Below, one piece after another: positions 829 to 25,492 of a DNA stretch of 33,021 nucleotides. A program made the translations under genes and the position numbers. Under the pieces are notes generated by a model that did not search any database, was not told the origin of the DNA, and saw only the letters and a program-made list of their open reading frames with translations. Position 1 is the first letter of the stretch, and each line of letters opens with the position of its first letter. Origin of the DNA: Phycisphaerae bacterium (GTDB lineage: Bacteria > Planctomycetota > Phycisphaerae > UBA1845); the NCBI GenBank assembly GCA_016929015.1, contig JAFGJQ010000496.1, forward strand, positions 1 to 33,021. Direction: 5' to 3'.

Positions 829-960
829 CAGGGTGGGCCATGGCGGACCTCACGATGGCGGTTTCTTGCCGGGCCATGTTGCGCCCGGTACGATGCGCCC
901 GAGTGGGGTTGCGTGTCTCTGTTGCAGAGAAAGCAATGCCGCGTGAAAGAGGAGCCCTCC

Positions 961-2697
961 ATGATTCGTCGACGTGTCCATCCGAGTGTCTGTGCCGCGT
1001 TTGCCGCAATCGCATCCGTGGCCGTCGCGGCGGAGCCGGCGCCGGATTTCACCCTCACGGACACGTACGGCCAGCCGGTCTCGCTCAAGGCGTATCGCGG
1101 GTCGGTGCTCTGGATCTCTTTCGGGGCCACATGGTGAGGGGGCTGCCAGGCGGAAGCTCCGCAGTTGGCGGAGTTGGAGCGGCGGTACGCGGATCGGCCC
1201 GTGCACTTCGTGCGGGTCGTCCCGGGTGAGAACGCCACCCAGGCCCTGGACTTCCAGAAGCACTACCGCAGCAGTGCAACCTACCTGCTGGACCATACGT
1301 ACGCGGTCGAAGCGGCCTACCGGGCGACATCGTGGCCGACGGACATTCTTGTGGATGCGGAGGGCAACATCGCCGGACGCTGGCAGAGCATCCTGCAGGA
1401 GCAGGATCGCGCGGCGGCCGTCCGCCTGCTCGATGAGCTTTTGCCGAAGGCCGGCGGCGGGCCGCCCCAGGGTGCAGTCTGCGTAGGTGACCGGTGCGTC
1501 CTTCCGCCGCCCGGCCACTTTTTCGAGATGCAGCCGACGATGGCGGCGGACGAGCAAGGCCGGCTGCACCTGGTGTTCGTGCGAGACCGCGCCGGCGTGG
1601 GTGAGCTGTATCACCAGCGGCTCTCCGGCGACACCTGGTCGGAACCGGAGGCAATCGGGCGCTCGCCCGCGGATGACTACGCGCCATACCTCTGCCGCAA
1701 CGCCCAAGACGGCGTGCGGCTGGTATGGTGCTCGAACCGGGCGGCCGGCGGCCGCTATGACGTCTACACGCAGCGCTTCGACGGCAACGAGTGGTCCGCG
1801 GAAGAGGCCGTCACGCAGTCGGACGACGACGCGGCCCACCCGCGTGCGGTTCTCGACGCATCGGGCAACTTCTGGGTGACATACTATCGATGGGTACCGT
1901 GGGGGCCGGGCGTATCGCGTGACCGCGAAGTATACGTGCGCTATCACGACGGCTCCTCCTGGTCGCCGGAAACGCAGGTCAGCCCGACCGACGTGCCCCG
2001 GTATGAGGACCACGCCGACCCTTCGATCGCGGCGGACGCGGCGGGCAGCGTGTGGGTCACCTGGTCGTGGGACACGCATCCCAAGGCGGAGAGCTGGGCG
2101 TTCGCCCCGACATTCGGCCCGGCCGTCTTCGCCCGGCAGCTTCGCGCCGGCCGGCCGCCCTCACGGCTGGAGATGGTGGGCGTGCGGGCGCCGACGCTGC
2201 AGGCCGCGATGAACAACGCCACGTTTGCGTTTTTGCCGGAGGTGCTCTGCCACGGAGATCAGCCGTGGTTCGCCTTCGAAATGCACACGATCCGCGGCGA
2301 CCATGCGTGTGGGGTCACGTCGTACGATCCGGCGCAGGGATTCCCCGCACCCGCGATGCTGGGAGCCAACGGAAGCTTCGTCTGCTCACCCAGGCTTATC
2401 GAGGACCGCCAGAAGAACCTGTGGTCCCTCTGGTCCGCTCCCGTGGGCAACGACAAGCGGTACGCCGTTCATGCAGCATGCCTAGCCGACACCGGTCGCT
2501 GGGACAAGCCGCAGGTTGTGTGGTACGAGCCTGGCGCCGACCTACGCTGGCCCGTCGGCGCGTTTGATGCGGACAGCCGCCTATGGATTGCCGCCGTTCG
2601 CGTCACTCCCGCGAAGAACACGGTTGCCGTTCGCCGGGCGGCGCAGCCCGCGACCTCCCAGCCGGCGTCGGACAACCCGCACGAGATCGGCTGGTGA
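961..2697 (+). CDS. Exported thioredoxin-like (TlpA-type) / beta-propeller fusion, putative selenoprotein with UGA = Sec59
   Basis: ATG 961 follows AAGAGGAG at 947-954 (6 nt spacing). Reading UGA 1135-1137 as selenocysteine gives 578 residues. Residues 1-24 form a Sec-type signal peptide (MIRRR, hydrophobic core, AVAA). Residues 26-150 are a TlpA/peroxiredoxin-like thioredoxin fold: PDFTLTDTYGQPVSLKAYRG, then SFGATW-U-GGC-QAEAPQLAELERRY, with cis-Pro126 in SWPTDILVD. The UGA replaces the first Cys of the CxxC redox motif (Sec59, Cys62), and the frame stays open for 519 codons after it. A second Cys pair (CVGDRC) sits in the linker. Residues ~175-560 carry repeated blades with DxxG-x-L/V-W/H-x-V-F/W and WS-x-E motifs, like BNR/sialidase-type beta-propellers. 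The predicted role is a periplasmic thiol/selenol oxidoreductase with a propeller for binding. The GH101/129-like gene follows 136 bp later. The alternative is a nonsense mutation of TGC/TGT. Confidence 0.78.
1155..1175 (+). promoter_or_regulatory. Candidate bacterial SECIS stem-loop
   Basis: CTCCGC at 1157-1162 pairs with GCGGAG at 1168-1173, extendable by G1156-U1174 and A1155-U1175 to 8 bp. It closes a 5-nt apical loop AGUUG at 1163-1167. The loop has a G among its first two bases and begins 25 nt after the UGA at 1135-1137. These properties fit the published loose model of bacterial SECIS elements recognised by SelB (short stem, small loop with an early G, about 16-37 nt from the UGA). 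A weaker competing hairpin (1139-1144 with 1155-1160) lies too close to the UGA. Pairing was done by eye, without folding energies. Confidence 0.6.
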
Positions 2698-2833
2698 GAA
2701 CCAACAACGATCAGACCCTTCGGCGGCCGGGAGCCAGACGCGAACCATGCAGAACAGGATTGGGATGAGTCAGACGCCACAGCACACGCGCCGCGGCCTT
2801 GGCTCGCGCCATCGCAGAAAATGGAGGTCTCCA

Positions 2834-5179
2834 ATGAGCGGCACACTGCTCGCGCTGCTTACGCTGACCGTTGGCGGGTCGGCATTGCCGGATGCCCAGG
2901 CATCGCCGCAGCAACCGAGTCTTCGCCTGGAGAACGACATTTGGACGGTCGTGGTGGAGCCGGCCTCCCTCGCGGTGACGGCGACGACACGTACTGGGCA
3001 GTCACTGACACTTTCGAATGGGCAGGCGGCGCTTGGGGAGGTTGCCGGCCTGCGGCAGGAAAAGACGTCCGCCACCTGGGAGCTCCCGTCGCAGCGCGTC
3101 CGTGTGTCGATGCGTCTCTGGGGCTCCGATGTCTCGGTCGACTTCCACGGCACGAGCGAAGGTTCAGTGGCGTGGCCGGTGCTCGAACTTGGCCCGCCGG
3201 TGACGGCTCTGATCTGGCCGTTTGCGGAGGGTCGATTCGTCCCCCTGGACGACCCGGTCTGGCGTGCATTCCTGACCGACCAGGACTGGAACACGCTCGA
3301 AGGCCTGGGCATGCCGTTCTGGGGACTTCACGGGGCTGAGGGTTCACTCACGTACATCGTGACCAACCGTTATTACAACCGGATCGAGTTCGAAAACGCG
3401 GGTGAGCACCTGCGAATGCGATTGGAGCACACATTCCCAGCCGCCCGGTCGGAACGGACGCATGGGATTGTGATCCGGTGGAGCGAAACCGCGTCGCCGG
3501 TGGAGCCCGCACGACAGTTCCGCCAATGGCTGATCGCCGGTGGCGACTTCGTGTCCATGCGCGACAAGCTCAAGACCGTGCCGAAGGCGGAGCGGCTGCT
3601 CGGGGCTCCACATGTCTACCTGTGGGGCGACACCTTGCTCTCCCGGCACGACCTTCCGAAAGAAAAGTGGCAGCCATTCTGTCAGATGCTGGTTCGCCAG
3701 GGAGCGGCCGAAGCGCCCTCCGTGGGCAAGCGAATCCGGGCGCTGATGTCCCCCGAACAGTGGAAGCAGGTGGAGGAAACTGCGACGCTGGACTGGCCGT
3801 ACGACCAGATCAAAACGGAAGTGGCCAACGCGCTGTCGGCACTTCTGGAACGGCCTGAATTCTATAACGAAGCAACGTGGCGAGACGTCACGTTGCCGGA
3901 GGACGCGCGGCGGTTACTGCAGGCCGATCGAGACAAGCTGTCGATGCGCGACATGCGCCGGATCAACTCCCTCGCTCTGCATGCTGCCTTTCCGGAAATG
4001 TTTCTCCCCGTCAACCAATGGGGCGACGGCGTGTCCACCAAGATGCTGCAGATGCTTCAGGAGGCGGGCCTGGAGCGGGTACGGCTGTGCGTCGCAGGCT
4101 GGGAAGGCATCGAGAAGCGGCCGGAGGTGGCGCAGTCGGCCGATGAGATGGGGTACCTGTTCGGCACCTACGATTCATTCCATAGCATTCATGATCCGAA
4201 GCTGGCGGGCACGGATGCTTCGTGGACCACGGCCCAGTTTGATCGAGAGCTGTTCGAGAAGGGTCCGATCGTGACGAAGGACGGAAAGAAGCGATCGGGC
4301 TTCAAGGGTCGCGGCTATCTCCTGAGTCCGCAAGCCGCCCGTCCGTGGGTGGAACGACGCGTAAGGGCCAACATGCACAACGTTCCGTATAGTTACTACT
4401 TTGTGGACTGCGATGCGTACGGACAGGTTTTCGACGACTATTCACCTGTTCACCCCTGCACCCAGGCACAGGACGCCGCCGCACGAGTCGACCGACTGCG
4501 GTGGATCGGCAAGACTTTCGGCGCGGTGGTCGGCTCCGAGGGTGGAAGTTCGTATGCGGCCCCCGCCGTGCATGTCACCGAGGGCGTGCTGACACCCGTG
4601 ATCGGCTGGGGCGATCCGGACATGAAGGACCGAGACTCGCAATATTACTTGGGCGGTTACTACCCGCCGGACGGACCGCGCGTATTCGTCCAGCCGGTAC
4701 CGTTGAAGGAGGAGTACGTTCACTTGCACTACGACCCGCGGTTTCGGCTGCCCTTATACGAGATCGTGTTCCACGACTCCATCGTTTCCACGCATCACTG
4801 GAGCGCGGGCAGCCTCAAGTTCTCAAACGTGCGGGAGACGGTGGCCCTTACGGAGATCCTCTACCAGTGTCCGCCGCTGTACCATTTGAACCTGGACGAG
4901 TGGCGCAAGCAACGAGAATCGATGCTGAAGCACTATGCCTTCTGGAGTCCGATTCATCGCGCCGTCGGATTCAAGCCCATGACGGATTTTGCGTGGCTGT
5001 CCCGCGATCGCCTCGTGCAGAAGACGGTCTTTGAAGGCGGCGTGGAGGTGATCGCCAACTTCAGCGGCGACGACTACGAGGCCAAGGATTTCGGCGTTCC
5101 GAGGCGAAGCGTCATCGTTCGAGGCCTGACCGGTGGGCCCCGGGGGCCCTATCGACCGGACGACTCGAAGACGCCGTAG
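2834..5179 (+). CDS. Exported glycoside hydrolase related to GH101/GH129
   Basis: About 781 residues, with an N-terminal signal sequence (GTLLALLTLTVGGSALPDAQA), a beta-sandwich N-terminal region, and a central (beta/alpha)8-like region from about residue 280. In that region strands such as ERVRLCVAGW and YSYYFVDCDAYGQVFDD (Asp525, Asp527) resemble the strand ends that carry acidic catalytic residues in GH101/GH129 endo-alpha-N-acetylgalactosaminidase relatives. A C-terminal beta domain (VEVIANFSGDDY) closes the chain. ATG 2834 has GGAGG at 2823-2827 (6 nt). An in-frame ATG at 2765 with AGGA 5 nt upstream would give a longer, arginine-rich n-region and is a real alternative, because the short form lacks N-terminal positive charges. 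It is probably co-transcribed with the thioredoxin-propeller gene. Substrate is unknown; the catalytic Asp is inference. Confidence 0.72.
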   Translation: MSGTLLALLTLTVGGSALPDAQASPQQPSLRLENDIWTVVVEPASLAVTATTRTGQSLTLSNGQAALGEVAGLRQEKTSATWELPSQRVRVSMRLWGSDVSVDFHGTSEGSVAWPVLELGPPVTALIWPFAEGRFVPLDDPVWRAFLTDQDWNTLEGLGMPFWGLHGAEGSLTYIVTNRYYNRIEFENAGEHLRMRLEHTFPAARSERTHGIVIRWSETASPVEPARQFRQWLIAGGDFVSMRDKLKTVPKAERLLGAPHVYLWGDTLLSRHDLPKEKWQPFCQMLVRQGAAEAPSVGKRIRALMSPEQWKQVEETATLDWPYDQIKTEVANALSALLERPEFYNEATWRDVTLPEDARRLLQADRDKLSMRDMRRINSLALHAAFPEMFLPVNQWGDGVSTKMLQMLQEAGLERVRLCVAGWEGIEKRPEVAQSADEMGYLFGTYDSFHSIHDPKLAGTDASWTTAQFDRELFEKGPIVTKDGKKRSGFKGRGYLLSPQAARPWVERRVRANMHNVPYSYYFVDCDAYGQVFDDYSPVHPCTQAQDAAARVDRLRWIGKTFGAVVGSEGGSSYAAPAVHVTEGVLTPVIGWGDPDMKDRDSQYYLGGYYPPDGPRVFVQPVPLKEEYVHLHYDPRFRLPLYEIVFHDSIVSTHHWSAGSLKFSNVRETVALTEILYQCPPLYHLNLDEWRKQRESMLKHYAFWSPIHRAVGFKPMTDFAWLSRDRLVQKTVFEGGVEVIANFSGDDYEAKDFGVPRRSVIVRGLTGGPRGPYRPDDSKTP

Positions 5180-7795: not shown

Positions 7796-8385
7796 GATTG
7801 TGCCCCTCCAGATGGCATGGGCAATCGCCGCATGAAAGCAGCGCCGGCTGCCATTGTACCGAAACGGCGGTCCAAACCGAACCGAGTTCCTCGCTGCGGT
7901 CGGTTCGGCTCTCCCGACTCCGATGAAGCTGTAACCACTTGCCTGGGCCACGGTTCGGGACCGCCGCAACCTATCGCGTCTCCAACAACCGCGAACTGAC
8001 CGGTCCGGCCGCTCCGTAGGTATTCGCCCGTACCACACGATTCGGGTTGAATTCAGGCGTGCGGACGGCCCAGGCAAATCACCGGCGTCACAGGAGCCGC
8101 CTTCGTGACGGCCCAGCGCCGTTTCAGTATCGGTCGTTAGACGGTATCGGACCTGTCCTCCCGCCGACCACGGCATTCGAGCCTCAATTCCACGTTGCGA
8201 GCGGTCGATTCGTAGTTGAGGTCTCCGCCTTCCTCCAGGTGGTCGGGGTGAGGGAGCGTGTGGGTGGAACGTCTGCCCGTCGGGCCACCGCGCAACGCGC
8301 GGCCGCCTGGCCGAGAGCACGTGTGGACTGTTCGCTGCGCGGTGCGTGTCCAGGGGCGCACGCGGCAACCTGCGATCGAGCCTGG
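7796..8385. other. Divergent intergenic region between the amidase and kinase operons
   Basis: 590 bp with no convincing gene on either strand. In-frame upstream extension of the kinase frame (from 8047) is arginine/alanine-rich and looks non-coding. The region must hold promoters for both directions, but I cannot pick convincing -35/-10 pairs. A 9-bp dyad at 7877-7908 is listed separately. Confidence 0.5.
7877..7908. repeat. 9-bp inverted repeat, possible operator
   Basis: CCGAACCGA at 7877-7885 is a perfect inverted repeat of TCGGTTCGG at 7900-7908, with 14 nt between. It lies 82-113 nt upstream of the amidase start. It could be a two-site operator or a hairpin in the amidase 5' leader. 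No poly-T follows on either strand, so it is not a terminator. Confidence 0.4.
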
Positions 8386-10026
8386 ATGCAGATGAACGAT
8401 TCGGTTGCCCATTCCGTTTTCCTGGCTGAAGCGGAGGACGACGTCGCCGACCGCATCGGTCGGGCTTTTGCGTCCGCGAAGCCGGATTGGGGCATCGTCC
8501 GTGCATCCACGCTTCTCGAAGCCCGGAGCGTATTGTCCCGGCAGAAACCCGACCTGGCGATCGTGGACATCCACCTGCCCGACGGAGACGGCATGACGCT
8601 GTTGCCCGGGCGCCTCGAAAACGGGCAATGCCCGATGATTGTCCTCACGAACGGCGCCGTCGGGCAGGCGCTGGGCGCCGCCCTGGAAGCCGGGGCCATC
8701 GACTGCGTTGTCAAATCCATCGAAAGCATCCAGGCCCTTCCCCAGATCGCCGAACGGGCGATTCGGTCCTGGGCCTACGTCGCCGCCCGGGAGAAGGCGG
8801 AACAGACGATCCGGCTGCTGGCCCGGGCCCTGGAGTCCGTCGCCAACGGAGTAATCATTACGGATTGCGACGCGTGCATCGAGTGGGTCAACCCCGCATT
8901 CAGCCGCCTGACCGGCTTCACGCCTGAAGAAGCCATAGGGCAAAACCCCCGGATTCTCAAGAGCGACGTTCATGAAGACTCGCTCTACCGCGAGCTGTGG
9001 CAGACCATTCTGGCAGGCTCCGTGTGGTTCGGACACATGGTGAACCGGCGCAAGGACGGCACGACCTATCACGAGGAAATGACCATCACTCCGATCTGTG
9101 ATGCGAGCGGGAACACCACCCATTTCGTAGCGGTCATGCAGGATATCTCCGAGCGGATGCAGGTGGAGCAGGCCCTCCGCAAGAACACTTGGGCCCTCCA
9201 GACCGCGAACCGCACCCTGGCCCAGGCCATAGCGGAAGCGGAAGCCGCATGCCGGGAGGCGGAGCGGGCGAATCGCGTCAAGAGCGAGTTTCTCGCAAAG
9301 ATGTCGCACGAACTGCGAACGCCGCTCAACTCGATCATCGGGTTCACGGAACTGATGATCCAGGACACACTCGATCCGCCGAGTCCGAAACGGGCCACCC
9401 GACTCGAAAAGGTTCACCGCAACGCCGGGAATTTGCTCGCTTTGATCAACGACATCCTTGATCTCTCCAAGATCGAGGCGAACCGGCTGACCCTGGACCT
9501 GGCGCCCGTAGACGTCGGCCACGTTCTGGAAGAGTGCGTCGAACTGGCCCGGCCGTTGCTTCGCGCGGGCACCGTGGAACTCCACCTCGACCTGCACCCG
9601 TCAGTTGCGCAGGCAGACCCCTGGATGGGCGACGAGCTGAGGTTCCGCCAGATTATCACAAACCTGCTCGGCAATGCCGTGAAATTCACCGAGGCAGGTC
9701 GCATCACCGTTCTCGCCCGCATCGATGCGAATGAACTGATGATCGAGGTCCACGACACCGGCATCGGAATCGCCGCCGAGCACCTGGACCGCATTTTCCA
9801 GGAATTCGAACAGGTGGATTCCTCGAACACCCGCCGGGCGAGCGGCACCGGCCTGGGGCTGGCGATCTGCAAACGCCTGTGCCGGCTGATGGGCGGACGT
9901 ATCGGCGTACGCAGCACGGTGGGCGTGGGAACGTGCTTTACGGTCTCCCTGCCCTGGTGTCAGGAAAACGCAGAGCACAAGCAGCAGACGGATGCTGGGG
10001 AGGCCGTGCTGGACGCATTCGTGTGA
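8386..10026 (+). CDS. Hybrid sensor histidine kinase, REC-PAS-HisKA-HATPase
   Basis: 546 residues, with no transmembrane segment, so cytoplasmic. An N-terminal receiver domain (residues ~10-125) has phospho-acceptor Asp61 in IVDIHLPDGDG and Lys110. A PAS domain (~145-258) contains IEWVNPAFSRLTGFTPEEAIGQNP. A short coiled coil (~262-300) leads to HisKA with His308 in FLAKMSHELRTPLN. The HATPase_c domain has an N box (IITNLLGNAVKFT), G1 (DTGIGI) and G2 (GTGLGLAI). The start is uncertain: ATG 8386 or 8392, both with poor ribosome-binding sites. It is first in an operon with three receiver proteins, which are its likely phosphotransfer partners. The input signal probably arrives through phosphorylation of the receiver domain or the PAS domain. 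Confidence 0.88.
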   Translation: MQMNDSVAHSVFLAEAEDDVADRIGRAFASAKPDWGIVRASTLLEARSVLSRQKPDLAIVDIHLPDGDGMTLLPGRLENGQCPMIVLTNGAVGQALGAALEAGAIDCVVKSIESIQALPQIAERAIRSWAYVAAREKAEQTIRLLARALESVANGVIITDCDACIEWVNPAFSRLTGFTPEEAIGQNPRILKSDVHEDSLYRELWQTILAGSVWFGHMVNRRKDGTTYHEEMTITPICDASGNTTHFVAVMQDISERMQVEQALRKNTWALQTANRTLAQAIAEAEAACREAERANRVKSEFLAKMSHELRTPLNSIIGFTELMIQDTLDPPSPKRATRLEKVHRNAGNLLALINDILDLSKIEANRLTLDLAPVDVGHVLEECVELARPLLRAGTVELHLDLHPSVAQADPWMGDELRFRQIITNLLGNAVKFTEAGRITVLARIDANELMIEVHDTGIGIAAEHLDRIFQEFEQVDSSNTRRASGTGLGLAICKRLCRLMGGRIGVRSTVGVGTCFTVSLPWCQENAEHKQQTDAGEAVLDAFV

Positions 10027-10086: not shown

Positions 10087-10509
10087 ATGAGCACGATTCT
10101 GGTCGTCGAAGACACGCAGGACAGCTATGACCTCATCGCCGACGCACTGGGCGACGAGCACACGCTGGTACACGCCCGTACCGGTCCCGAGGGCATCAAA
10201 ATGGCAGCGTGTGTGCGGCCCGACCTGATCCTCCTGGACATGCGCCTGCCCGAACTGGACGGACTGTCCGTGGTCCGACGCCTGCGCAGCATGGAGGAAC
10301 TCAAGGCAACCCCGGTCGTCGCCGTCACGGCCAATGCCATGCCGCAAGACCGAGAGATTTGCCTGGCCGCCGGATGCGACGACTACCTCTCCAAGCCAAT
10401 TGCCATCCACGCTCTGGTGGAACTCGTCAATCGAATCCTGTCCACAGATCCGGGCGCCCGGGCCCCGCAGCAGAAGAATCCGCAGCCATGCCAGGAGACG
10501 TCATCGTGA
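10087..10509 (+). CDS. Single-domain response regulator (REC, DivK/CheY-like)
   Basis: 140 residues consisting of one receiver domain and a short proline/glutamine-rich tail. It has the acidic pair in LVVEDTQD, phospho-acceptor Asp51 (LILLDMRLPELDG), Thr81 (VAVTANAM) and Lys103 (LSKPI), so it should be phosphorylatable. It starts 60 bp after the kinase stop and its TGA (10507-10509) overlaps the GTG start of the next gene, so the two are translationally coupled. With no output domain it acts as a shuttle in a phosphorelay or on a protein partner. Confidence 0.88.
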   Translation: MSTILVVEDTQDSYDLIADALGDEHTLVHARTGPEGIKMAACVRPDLILLDMRLPELDGLSVVRRLRSMEELKATPVVAVTANAMPQDREICLAAGCDDYLSKPIAIHALVELVNRILSTDPGARAPQQKNPQPCQETSS

Positions 10510-11387
10510 GCGGTGAGATCGATCTGCAATCCATCACCGTCCTCGGCGTGGACGACACGCCGGACAACCTGGACCTGCTGGAAGACTACCTGGAGGGCGA
10601 GGTCTGGAACTTCCTCCGGGCCCGATCGGGTGAGGAGTGCATCCGGCTGGCCCTGGATCCGGGCGCGGACATCATTCTGCTGGACCTGAACATGCCCAAT
10701 ATGAACGGGCTGAGCGTCGTCCGCTCACTGCGAGCCATCCAGCGGCTCCAGCAAATCCCCGTGATCCTCCAGACGGCCTACGCCAGCAAAGAGAACGTTC
10801 TGGCGGCCAGCCGTCTGGGCTGCACGCACATTCTGGCGAAACCGCTGTCCCGCGACCGCCTGCTAAGCGAGATGCGAGCGTGTCTGGCAGAACGGCCGCG
10901 CCCCGCCGCCGATGAAACGTCGGACGGGGACAGGTCGGACCCGCGGGTGATCGCCCACACCGCACGCCAGACCAGGCAACTCGTGCAGAACACCCGGCTG
11001 GCCGATAATGCGGACGGCGTCGCAACGGTAGATGCGATTCAAGACCTGATCTCCGGTGAAACGGCCCTGGGAGAGCGGCTGATCCGCGTGGCCAATTCAC
11101 CGACATACGCCGGACGCCACCGCGTCCGAACCGTTGTTCAGGCAGTCGTCCGCCTCGGCATTGTGGAAACGCGCCGGCTGATTCGCAAAGCGTCCGATCG
11201 AATGCTTCAGGGGGTCGACTCGGACCGGACCCTCAAATCGCTCGACCTGCTGGAATCAATCACACGGCTCTTCCCGGAACGAGCCGCCACCGAGGAGGGT
11301 TTGCTCGGTCTGCTGGAGGAGCTGGGGCGAGCGCCGACTTCGGCAGCGGCCCAAGGCCCGGCGGCCGCATCGCCGGACGCCGGCTGA
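10506..11387 (+). CDS. Response regulator with receiver and truncated HDOD-like domain
   Basis: 293 residues. The receiver domain (10-125) has Asp60 (IILLDLNMPNMNG), Thr90 and Lys112 (LAKPLS). The C-terminal part contains LGERLIRVANSPTYAG and TVVQAVVRLGIVETRRLI, the helix pattern of the HDOD output domain, but only about 90 residues instead of the usual ~200, so it is a partial or divergent HDOD. GTG 10506 is chosen: AGGAG at 10493-10497 lies 8 nt upstream and it overlaps the preceding stop by 4 bp (GTGA). ATG 10488 is the alternative. HDOD proteins usually work in signalling rather than as DNA-binding activators. Confidence 0.78.
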   Translation: MSGEIDLQSITVLGVDDTPDNLDLLEDYLEGEVWNFLRARSGEECIRLALDPGADIILLDLNMPNMNGLSVVRSLRAIQRLQQIPVILQTAYASKENVLAASRLGCTHILAKPLSRDRLLSEMRACLAERPRPAADETSDGDRSDPRVIAHTARQTRQLVQNTRLADNADGVATVDAIQDLISGETALGERLIRVANSPTYAGRHRVRTVVQAVVRLGIVETRRLIRKASDRMLQGVDSDRTLKSLDLLESITRLFPERAATEEGLLGLLEELGRAPTSAAAQGPAAASPDAG

Positions 11388-14656: not shown

Positions 14657-16186
14657 TCAATGCACGGCACAGGCCAGGCACGGATCAAACGACCGCACAA
14701 TGCGTCCCAGTTCGATCGGCTGGGATGCGTTAGCCACTTGTGTGCCTTCCAGTGCCTTCTCCACGGGGCCGGACTGCCCCTTTGAATCCCGGGGCGAGCA
14801 GTTCCACGTCGTCGGCACCACGCTCTGGTACGCCTGCACCTTGTAGTCCTCGATGGTCAGCCAGTGTCCCAGCGCGCCGCGCGGGGCCTCCACCAGGCCC
14901 GCGCCCCGACCGCTCGTGGGGAGCTCGAACGCGGTGACGGCCGGCTGGTCCACGGCGATTTCGTCCAGCCAGCGGAAGCACTGCCGCACCAGGGCCAGGG
15001 TTTCCAGTCCCCGAGTGACGTGCCGACCCATCACGGACACCAGCTTGTCCGGCGTGAGGCCGAGTTGCTCGCAGACCGCATCCACGGGCCTGCGGGACCA
15101 ACCGTTGTCTCCCGCATGGTAGTCCACGAGCACGCGGGCGAGCGGGCCGACCTCCAGCGGCAGGCCGCGATAGCGCGGGGCCTTGATCCAGGAATAGGCC
15201 CGGGGCTTGCCCGGCTTGGGGCGCGTCTCGCCGTCATACGGATGGCGGGCCGGGCCGTCCTCGTACCAGGCGACGCTGACGTCCTCGCTGATGTGACGGG
15301 GATCGAACGCCTCCCACTTGCCGTCGATGAACGTCCCGGCCGGGAAGAACTTCCGTCCGCTGTCGTCCAGGTCAAACGAGCCGTAGGCCAGGAAGTTGCC
15401 CCAGCCCCGTCCGATCTCAAAGTACTGCGGGAACTGGCGACCCACTTCAAGCAGGTCGGGCAGGTACACGTCCTCCACGAACGCGAGCACCTCGTCCAGC
15501 CGGGACCGGTAGGCCAGGATGCGCTCCAGCGTGGGTTTCTGCGTGCATCCGCCGGGCAGCAGGGCCGTGGAGTGCGGCAGCCGCGCCCCGAACACCGCGC
15601 CCATCTCGTCGCAAGTGCGGCGTATCTTCAGGGCGTCTGCATAGTGTCCGAGCAGTGCGCAGTTGATCTCGGTGGAGGAGACGTAGTCACCCTCGTAGCG
15701 CGGCAGGAACGGCGCGACCGGAAAGACATCCTTGCGGTCCAGGGCCGATTGGGCCCAGGCCTTGAGCTTGAGCAGCGTGCGGTCCGAACCTCCGTAGTTC
15801 AGCACGGCCGTCACGTCGACAAAGTCCAGTGCCGCCAACTGGTAGAAGTGGAGAATGTGCGAATGGAAGTAGTTCGCTGAGGCGATCAGGTTTTGCAGCA
15901 GCCGACCGTTTTGCACGGGACGAATCCCGTATGCCTGCTCCTGCGCCCGCACGGAGGCCATACCGTGAGAGATCGGGCAGACTCCGCACGTACGCTGCGT
16001 GATCTGCTGGGCGTCCAACGGGTCGCGGCCGATCAGAATCACTTCCAGCCCGCGAAACATTTCCCCTTCGCAGTGGGCTTGTGTGACCTGCACGCCGGAG
16101 CCGCCAGGCTGCGGCTCGGTCTCGGTGTGGATGGCCAGGTGGCCTTCGATCCGGGTCAGCGGACTGATGGTGACCGTCTGTGACAT
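14657..16186 (-). CDS. [NiFe] hydrogenase large (catalytic) subunit
   Basis: 509 residues, shorter than many group 1 large subunits (about 550-600). The NiFe ligands are RTCGVCPISH (Cys67, Cys70, His74) and DPCLACAVH (Cys503, Cys506). The N-terminus ISPLTRIEGHLAI is canonical. The stop codon follows immediately after His509, so there is no C-terminal extension to be removed by a maturation endopeptidase. Position 503 is Cys, so this is not a NiFeSe enzyme. It catalyses H2 oxidation or evolution. With no signal of its own, it would be exported bound to the Tat-bearing small subunit, which starts 49 bp downstream. No hyp maturation genes or cytochrome b subunit lie in the window. Confidence 0.92.
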   Translation of the reverse strand: MSQTVTISPLTRIEGHLAIHTETEPQPGGSGVQVTQAHCEGEMFRGLEVILIGRDPLDAQQITQRTCGVCPISHGMASVRAQEQAYGIRPVQNGRLLQNLIASANYFHSHILHFYQLAALDFVDVTAVLNYGGSDRTLLKLKAWAQSALDRKDVFPVAPFLPRYEGDYVSSTEINCALLGHYADALKIRRTCDEMGAVFGARLPHSTALLPGGCTQKPTLERILAYRSRLDEVLAFVEDVYLPDLLEVGRQFPQYFEIGRGWGNFLAYGSFDLDDSGRKFFPAGTFIDGKWEAFDPRHISEDVSVAWYEDGPARHPYDGETRPKPGKPRAYSWIKAPRYRGLPLEVGPLARVLVDYHAGDNGWSRRPVDAVCEQLGLTPDKLVSVMGRHVTRGLETLALVRQCFRWLDEIAVDQPAVTAFELPTSGRGAGLVEAPRGALGHWLTIEDYKVQAYQSVVPTTWNCSPRDSKGQSGPVEKALEGTQVANASQPIELGRIVRSFDPCLACAVH

Positions 16187-25407: not shown

Positions 25408-25492
25408 TGGGCGAGGCGGGAATCGAACCCGCACGGGGGGAACCCCCCAGGGGATTTTAAGTCCCCAGCGTCTGCCATTCCGCCACTCGCCC
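25408..25492 (-). tRNA. tRNA-Leu (anticodon UAA)
   Basis: Class II tRNA of 85 nt. The acceptor stem GGGCGAG (25492-25486) pairs with CTCGCCC (25415-25409), with A73 at 25408. The anticodon stem GGGGA/TCCCC encloses loop CTTAAAA with anticodon TAA. The long variable arm is a G6/C6 hairpin, and the T arm is GCGGGTTCGATTCCCGC. The CCA is not encoded. It lies 58 bp downstream of the U32 gene in the same direction and has an integrase remnant next to its 3' end. Confidence 0.97.

Follow-up and report, generated by a model that had tools for sequence, protein, structure and literature searches.

The DNA analysed here (the window) is a 33,021-nucleotide stretch, contig C135 of a draft Phycisphaerae genome (5.8 Mb, 92% complete, 4.7% contaminated), and near its left end it carries a gene that, judged from its sequence, very probably encodes a bacterial selenoprotein. 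The gene is flanked by a DUF1801 gene and a GH129-like gene; the latter, a glycosyl hydrolase frame at 2516-5179 on the plus strand, lies just downstream and has its Pfam match at residues 514-837. The features of the locus, all on the plus strand, are as follows.

950..954, plus strand: Shine-Dalgarno-like AGGAG, six bases 5' of the ATG, by direct reading
961..2697, plus strand: very probable selenoprotein gene, encoding a signal peptide, a TlpA/ResA-like domain with UGGC and a beta-propeller (each as predicted), final stop TGA
961..1032, plus strand: probable signal peptide, Ala-rich, AVAA then EPAPDF, by direct reading; low pLDDT at residues 1-22
1033..1377, plus strand: TlpA/ResA-like thioredoxin-fold domain, residues 25-139, from PF00578, PF08534 and ResA structure matches
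1135..1137, plus strand: UGA, predicted selenocysteine 59, the U of U-G-G-C, from 10 UGA and 4 Cys codons in 14 genomes
1144..1146, plus strand: Cys62, presumed resolving Cys, invariant in 13 aligned sequences
1155..1175, plus strand: predicted bacterial SECIS-type element, intragenic, stem 1155-1162/1168-1175 and loop AGUUG 1163-1167, from folding, compensatory changes and a synonymous control
1522..2637, plus strand: predicted beta-propeller, residues about 188-559, from the structure model, a CV39L match, a sub-cut-off PD40 match and invariant columns

Read through the internal UGA, the frame yields 578 residues and a terminal UGA, and the sole internal UGA is residue 59, within W-U-G-G-C-Q, where it opens the U-G-G-C redox motif of the TlpA/ResA-like domain. 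A sequence-only reading of this DNA had described one frame broken only by the TGA at 1135-1137, with more than 500 intact codons behind it; both descriptions are confirmed, its 579 codons including the stop and 519 codons being open 3' of the UGA. To the left of the UGA are a signal-peptide-like N terminus, APDFTLTDTYGQPV and SFGATW, and to its right are GGCQAEAPQLAELERRY and SWPTDILVD. The Pfam matches to AhpC-TSA (5e-18, residues 25-138) and Redoxin (1.2e-17, residues 24-139) both run across the UGA, and PF00578 scores 65.7 bits against a cut-off of 26, with the UxxC motif present as UGGC. The placing of the stop where the attacking Cys of the redox motif belongs, also taken from that reading, agrees with these spanning matches and with the UGA or Cys that relatives have there. 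ResA, TlpA and related chains were among the matches of the window protein in a PDB sequence search. The codons are rich in G+C at their third positions both before the UGA (0.88, 32 codons) and after it (0.84, 519 codons), and first-position G+C differs across it (0.53 before, 0.70 after).

Relatives were sought in several overlapping groups of genomes, the window genome being counted wherever a group included G000. At E 1e-20 the window's family gave no match in 50 other genomes, its own genome being the 1 of 51, and a single-protein scan of the genome contig collection returned no relative. A four-sequence alignment scan of the genome contigs returned six loci among 31 pattern-matching stretches. 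Matches were found in at least 4 of 392 genomes of a phylum sample, at least 11 of 397 of a sample of the window's class and at least 9 of 161 of the order of G727, all lower bounds from at most three candidates scored per genome in the phylum and own-class samples and at most eight in the order of G727. Two of 23 genomes matched in the class of G322 and 1 of 29 in the class of G364. The family is patchy in Planctomycetota.

Fourteen genomes, as separate assemblies and with the window included, keep the thioredoxin domain, and motif position 1 is UGA in ten of them and Cys in four, which bears out the expectation of Cys or UGA at this position when homologues are aligned. The UGA forms are the window, G322 (L019), G364 (L020), G181 (L021), G680 (L023), G740 (L025), G653 (L034), G727 (L035), G724 (L036) and G801 (L072); the Cys forms, with TGC or TGT, are G588 (L037), G752 (L038), G725 (L039) and G641 (L040). 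The 12 other rows of alignment A5, in which L036 was trimmed at an internal TAA, are 27-31% identical to the window protein. L072 does not enter alignments A4 and A5, the structure model, the counting of stem pairs or the recoding test, nor the searches for selA and tRNA-Sec; it is included in the hairpin tally, the tree and, via genome G801, the selB search. Left outside the UGA/Cys count are the G750 copy (L028/L041/L060), which keeps the propeller and is missing the thioredoxin domain, and a propeller-only partial second match in G801 (L074).

Several members of the family have features of their own. An extra Cys precedes the motif Trp (C-W-U/C-G-G-C) in L023, L025, L034, L035, L036, L072 and the four Cys forms, and is absent from the window and L019-L021. 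In G588, the genome that gave no selA match, the Cys form (L063 6940-9675) is itself joined to an S41 peptidase that carries a Tricorn C1 domain; the Cys form of G752 has N-terminal HEAT repeats. At L028 3911-6960 (G750) the propeller follows directly after a histidine kinase, the thioredoxin domain being missing through deletion or an assembly fault. L036, a UGA form, has an extra in-frame TAA after SLW in the propeller, reflecting decay, an error or a shortened product.

These data bear on two simpler accounts of the UGA. One is that an ordinary Cys-type TlpA gene has suffered a nonsense change, as a pseudogene or by sequencing error. It can point to the single matching genome among the 51 of the window's family, which leaves no close relative with the gene, and to damaged copies such as L036 and the G750 locus, but this UGA codon is shared by ten genomes, their proteins having 27-31% identity to that of the window, a covarying hairpin (below) lies behind it and 519 codons remain open, so we regard this account as very improbable. 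Random stops elsewhere in the relatives, which would have spoken for decay, form no pattern, the TAA in the L036 propeller being the one extra stop. The other account takes the UGA as a true stop after a short fragment, with a later start, e.g. TTG 1165, giving a separate propeller protein. A 510-codon frame from TTG 1165 does stand in the mechanical ORF list; such a stop would nevertheless cut the thioredoxin fold just before its redox-motif helix, yet WUGxCQ is common to all ten UGA genes, and domain and propeller are uninterrupted in four relatives. We consider two separate products highly unlikely.

Behind the window UGA, positions 1155-1162 pair with 1168-1175 around the loop AGUUG (1163-1167). 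An early-G stem-loop had been claimed to begin 25 nt after the UGA; the hairpin is present, with its stem starting at 17 nt and its loop at 25. With shifts of up to 2 allowed, all ten UGA genes can form such a hairpin, 8 stem pairs around a 5-base loop starting 17 nt behind the UGA, with 7 or 8 of the pairs in place; the four Cys genes reach at most 4 of 8 with the same shifts, and 0, 0, 2 and 2 in the common register. Nine UGA sequences align gap-free from the UGA onward, with the stem in columns 21-28 and 34-41, and the loops in the common register read AGUUG, AGGUU, GGGUC or GUGUC. In these nine genes, 93.1% of 72 cells are paired, compared with 33-47% after displacement of one arm by 1-3 columns and with a mean of 75.7% in shuffles, none of 500 of which reached the observed value. 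Twelve cells, in four of the eight pairs, are changed on both sides; the twelve cells were matched by 0 of 500 shuffles, the four pairs by 37 of 500, the covariation score by 0 of 500 and the number of pair types by 6 of 500. RNAalifold, unprompted, returned the same stem with one more pair, the loop closing to three bases in most sequences.

Since the hairpin lies in coding sequence, its pairing was also compared with synonymous recodings, in which each of the nine sequences drew its codons at the frequencies of its own frame further downstream. The genes as they stand form 67 of 72 pairs; 20,000 trials averaged 46.5 and never exceeded 58. Taken singly, L019 (0.058) and L020 (0.86) are not outstanding in this test; the L020 stem lies one base earlier (7 of 8 pairs), and 4 of 8 remain when it is scored in the common register. 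When 45-nt cuts are folded alone, six of the nine UGA genes have the stem in their minimum-energy structure, and the window, L020 and L034 adopt other folds; the window stem is present in the best structure of all four longer cuts. The window hairpin alone is unexceptional for its G+C-rich composition (z of -1.76, -1.91, -0.61 and -0.62 in four cuts), and the case for the hairpin is carried by the family evidence, not by the window fold alone. The two strands of the window hold 811 TGA triplets, and the one at 1135 is alone in being followed by a hairpin that fits a set rule (8 stem pairs, a loop of 5 nt whose first two bases include G, stem start 16-18 nt after the TGA); the count is descriptive, as the rule was derived from the family. 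Six other UGA-plus-hairpin candidates, from the window and from the two contig stretches with tRNA-Sec and selAB, appeared chance-like.

The selenocysteine-insertion genes selA, selB and tRNA-Sec, which the sequence-only reading had proposed to look for, are all present in the window genome: selA (559 bits) and selB (324 bits, or 366 with the neighbour in frame) lie side by side on contig C432, and there is one tRNA-Sec with anticodon UCA (69 bits; ARAGORN call SeC(tca)). Across the relatives, selA was found in 14 of 15 genomes, including all nine UGA-form ones, G801 being outside this sample; it is still present in three of the four Cys-form genomes and was not found in the fourth, G588 (97% complete). 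ARAGORN confirmed a tRNA-Sec with UCA in 9 of 15 genomes (5 of 9 UGA-form ones) and left it unconfirmed in G680, G322, G181 and G364, where the best matches were tRNA-Ser, tRNA-Ser, tRNA-Ser and tRNA-Gly, respectively. Eleven of 16 genomes, among them 6 of the 10 UGA-form ones, gave a selB match above cut-off; G181 and G680 have sub-cut-off pieces at contig ends, and G364 and G801 (57% complete) have elongation-factor-like matches only. Since most of the genomes are many-contig drafts, the absence of selB or tRNA-Sec is weak evidence, yet it lends no support either.

The open in-frame UGA might also reflect a changed code, with UGA read as another amino acid (Trp, Gly or Cys); UGA terminates five of the nine window frames checked, the selenoprotein frame included, and the Sec machinery is present in the window genome, so that this account is exceedingly unlikely. 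Two further loci in the window were examined for signs of Sec. A tRNA-Leu (TAA) called by ARAGORN at 25408-25492 (minus strand) scores 53 bits against an Rfam tRNA-Sec cut-off of 47, and is a trap for automatic tRNA-Sec calls. The large subunit of a [NiFe] hydrogenase (14657-16186, minus strand) has Cys, not Sec, in its last motif, DPCLACAVH.

An AlphaFold2 model from 13 sequences (mean pLDDT 81.3, pTM 0.85) contains a thioredoxin-like domain with a helix from residue 60, directly after Sec59; a helix starting right after the first motif residue is the expectation for a thioredoxin-fold redox motif. About seven strand groups follow at residues 188-559, suggesting that the predicted propeller may have seven blades. 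In Foldseek, ResA chains among the matches listed for the first domain had TM-scores of 0.84-0.89 by target length; for the second domain, lectin, sialidase and lyase propellers were among the matches listed, CV39L lectin being the top propeller by target length among the 50 matches listed (TM-score 0.70). The PD40 propeller repeat falls slightly under the Pfam cut-off in the window protein. Invariant residues include W58, Sec/Cys59, G60, C62, Q63, F98, H101, Y102 and R103 in the thioredoxin part and S319-R320-D321, E323, E349-D350-H351, W368, W370, D371 and H373 in the propeller, whose family signatures are SRDREVYV, VSPTDVPxYEDHxDP and WSWDxH. The cis-Pro place is occupied across 14 sequences by Pro in seven, Thr in five (the four Cys forms and L020), Ala in one and Ser in one, the window having Pro; given this variability, the redox chemistry may be unusual.

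The selenoprotein assignment rests on computed observations, namely the conserved UGA codon and its exchange with Cys, the covarying hairpin, and the recoding genes selA and selB with tRNA-Sec. Upon reaching the UGA at 1135-1137, the ribosome would be supplied with Sec-tRNA-Sec (anticodon UCA) by SelB bound to the hairpin at 1155-1175, and translation would continue for 519 codons. We infer that the product would be exported as a TlpA/ResA-like thiol-disulfide oxidoreductase and run a reductase-type Se-S cycle, with Sec59 as the attacking and Cys62 as the resolving residue, and that the propeller probably serves as a binding platform for a substrate or partner. A reductase-type role for the window protein seems reasonably likely.

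A different main function for the same selenoprotein is possible, though we would not favour it: the protein might sense redox state or a substrate in concert with a histidine kinase, or its main activity might reside in the propeller. A histidine kinase gene stands directly upstream in five genomes, by Pfam in G724 and G750 and by sequence likeness in G740, G801 and G653, and a response regulator with Trans_reg_C directly downstream in G740 and G724. The long conserved stretches of the propeller, the variable cis-Pro and the G750 copy without a thioredoxin domain point the same way. However, no kinase lies directly beside the window gene, L023 or G727, the last two having neighbours that differ from the kinase context, and gene neighbours do not prove function. 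In G724, G653 and G750 the gene for a TPR protein lies on the upstream side of the kinase gene, and the G653 and G750 proteins also carry CBM9 and laminin-G-like domains. Within the window, a PAS-type histidine kinase with a receiver domain is encoded at 8047-10026 (plus strand), 5-9 kb downstream of the selenoprotein gene, and the next gene, at 10209-11387 (plus strand), encodes a response regulator with an HDOD domain.

In the 14-row tree, the Cys forms make up a single group, requiring one change (support 85/85; 88% of bootstrap trees), and Sec forms stand on both sides of the midpoint root. Given the midpoint rooting, the long branches of the window and L021 and five rows of unlike composition, 'Sec first, one loss' is a reading of this tree, not a result. 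A tentative wider picture, doubtful as a whole, would be a Planctomycetota family in which Sec is the older state and in which, in at least one lineage, the Sec-TlpA-propeller protein forms, with the TPR protein, histidine kinase and response regulator, a two-component sensor whose exported redox arm it provides.

Taken as an exported oxidoreductase with selenocysteine, the window protein and its relatives would enlarge the bacterial selenoproteome by one domain architecture, a Sec-TlpA domain joined to a beta-propeller. Ten hairpin-bearing sequences and four hairpin-less Cys counterparts offer a natural experiment on the benefit of Sec in what would be an exported thiol-disulfide protein, and the histidine kinase link in one lineage suggests a redox or substrate sensing role there. 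Where annotation ends a frame at every UGA, such genes would come out divided or truncated.

Among known systems, the periplasmic oxidoreductases ResA, TlpA and DsbE resemble the window protein in the probable signal peptide, the fold and the place of the redox motif; the window protein differs in its predicted Sec for Cys and its extra propeller, and it remains under the NCBIfam cut-offs for ResA (63.2 of 170 bits) and TlpA (42.4 of 230). No NCBIfam model exceeded its cut-off for the three proteins tested. CV39L lectin, PL25 lyase and sialidases have the predicted propeller fold in common with the window protein, at 8-14% identity among the matches listed, and the window protein has no sialidase or lectin Pfam match (for sialidase, none at E up to 1). 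TlpA-like selenoproteins also include the UGC-containing TlpA family protein listed in the available part of PMC13188914 and NF041054, 'ResA-like WAxxUGC motif-containing protein'; the window motif is WUGxC rather than UGC, and the window protein scores 33.7 bits against the NF041054 cut-off of 300.

Sec machinery was already known in Planctomycetes from the available text of PMC4807772. In the accessible parts of PMC9312934 and PMC13188914, UxxC selenoproteins of PF00578 (Prx-like thiol:disulfide oxidoreductase) are already tabulated, and the portion of the Sargasso Sea paper at hand (PMC1088965) has a Prx-like UXXC family, so the sequence-only reading was right that UxxC thioredoxin-like selenoproteins exist in bacteria; its 'new selenoprotein' stands for the propeller fusion, which appears new, and not for UxxC selenoproteins of PF00578 as such. 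A propeller-fused TlpA selenoprotein was not found described in the literature consulted, including the available parts of PMC9312934, PMC13188914, PMC1088965, PMC12013277 and PMC4807772, and members of the family may sit unnamed inside the published 'Prx-like' family. As far as the accessible descriptions go, the window protein and the Prx-like proteins (listed representative WP_010940744.1) have in common the PF00578 domain and Sec, predicted in the window protein, at motif position 1; the window protein adds a predicted propeller of about 370 residues, and its family has signatures of its own (WUGxCQ, HYR, SRDxE and EDH). With the same UGA at the same codon in relatives within the phylum, the Sec-TlpA proteins with a predicted beta-propeller appear to form a previously undescribed selenoprotein family.
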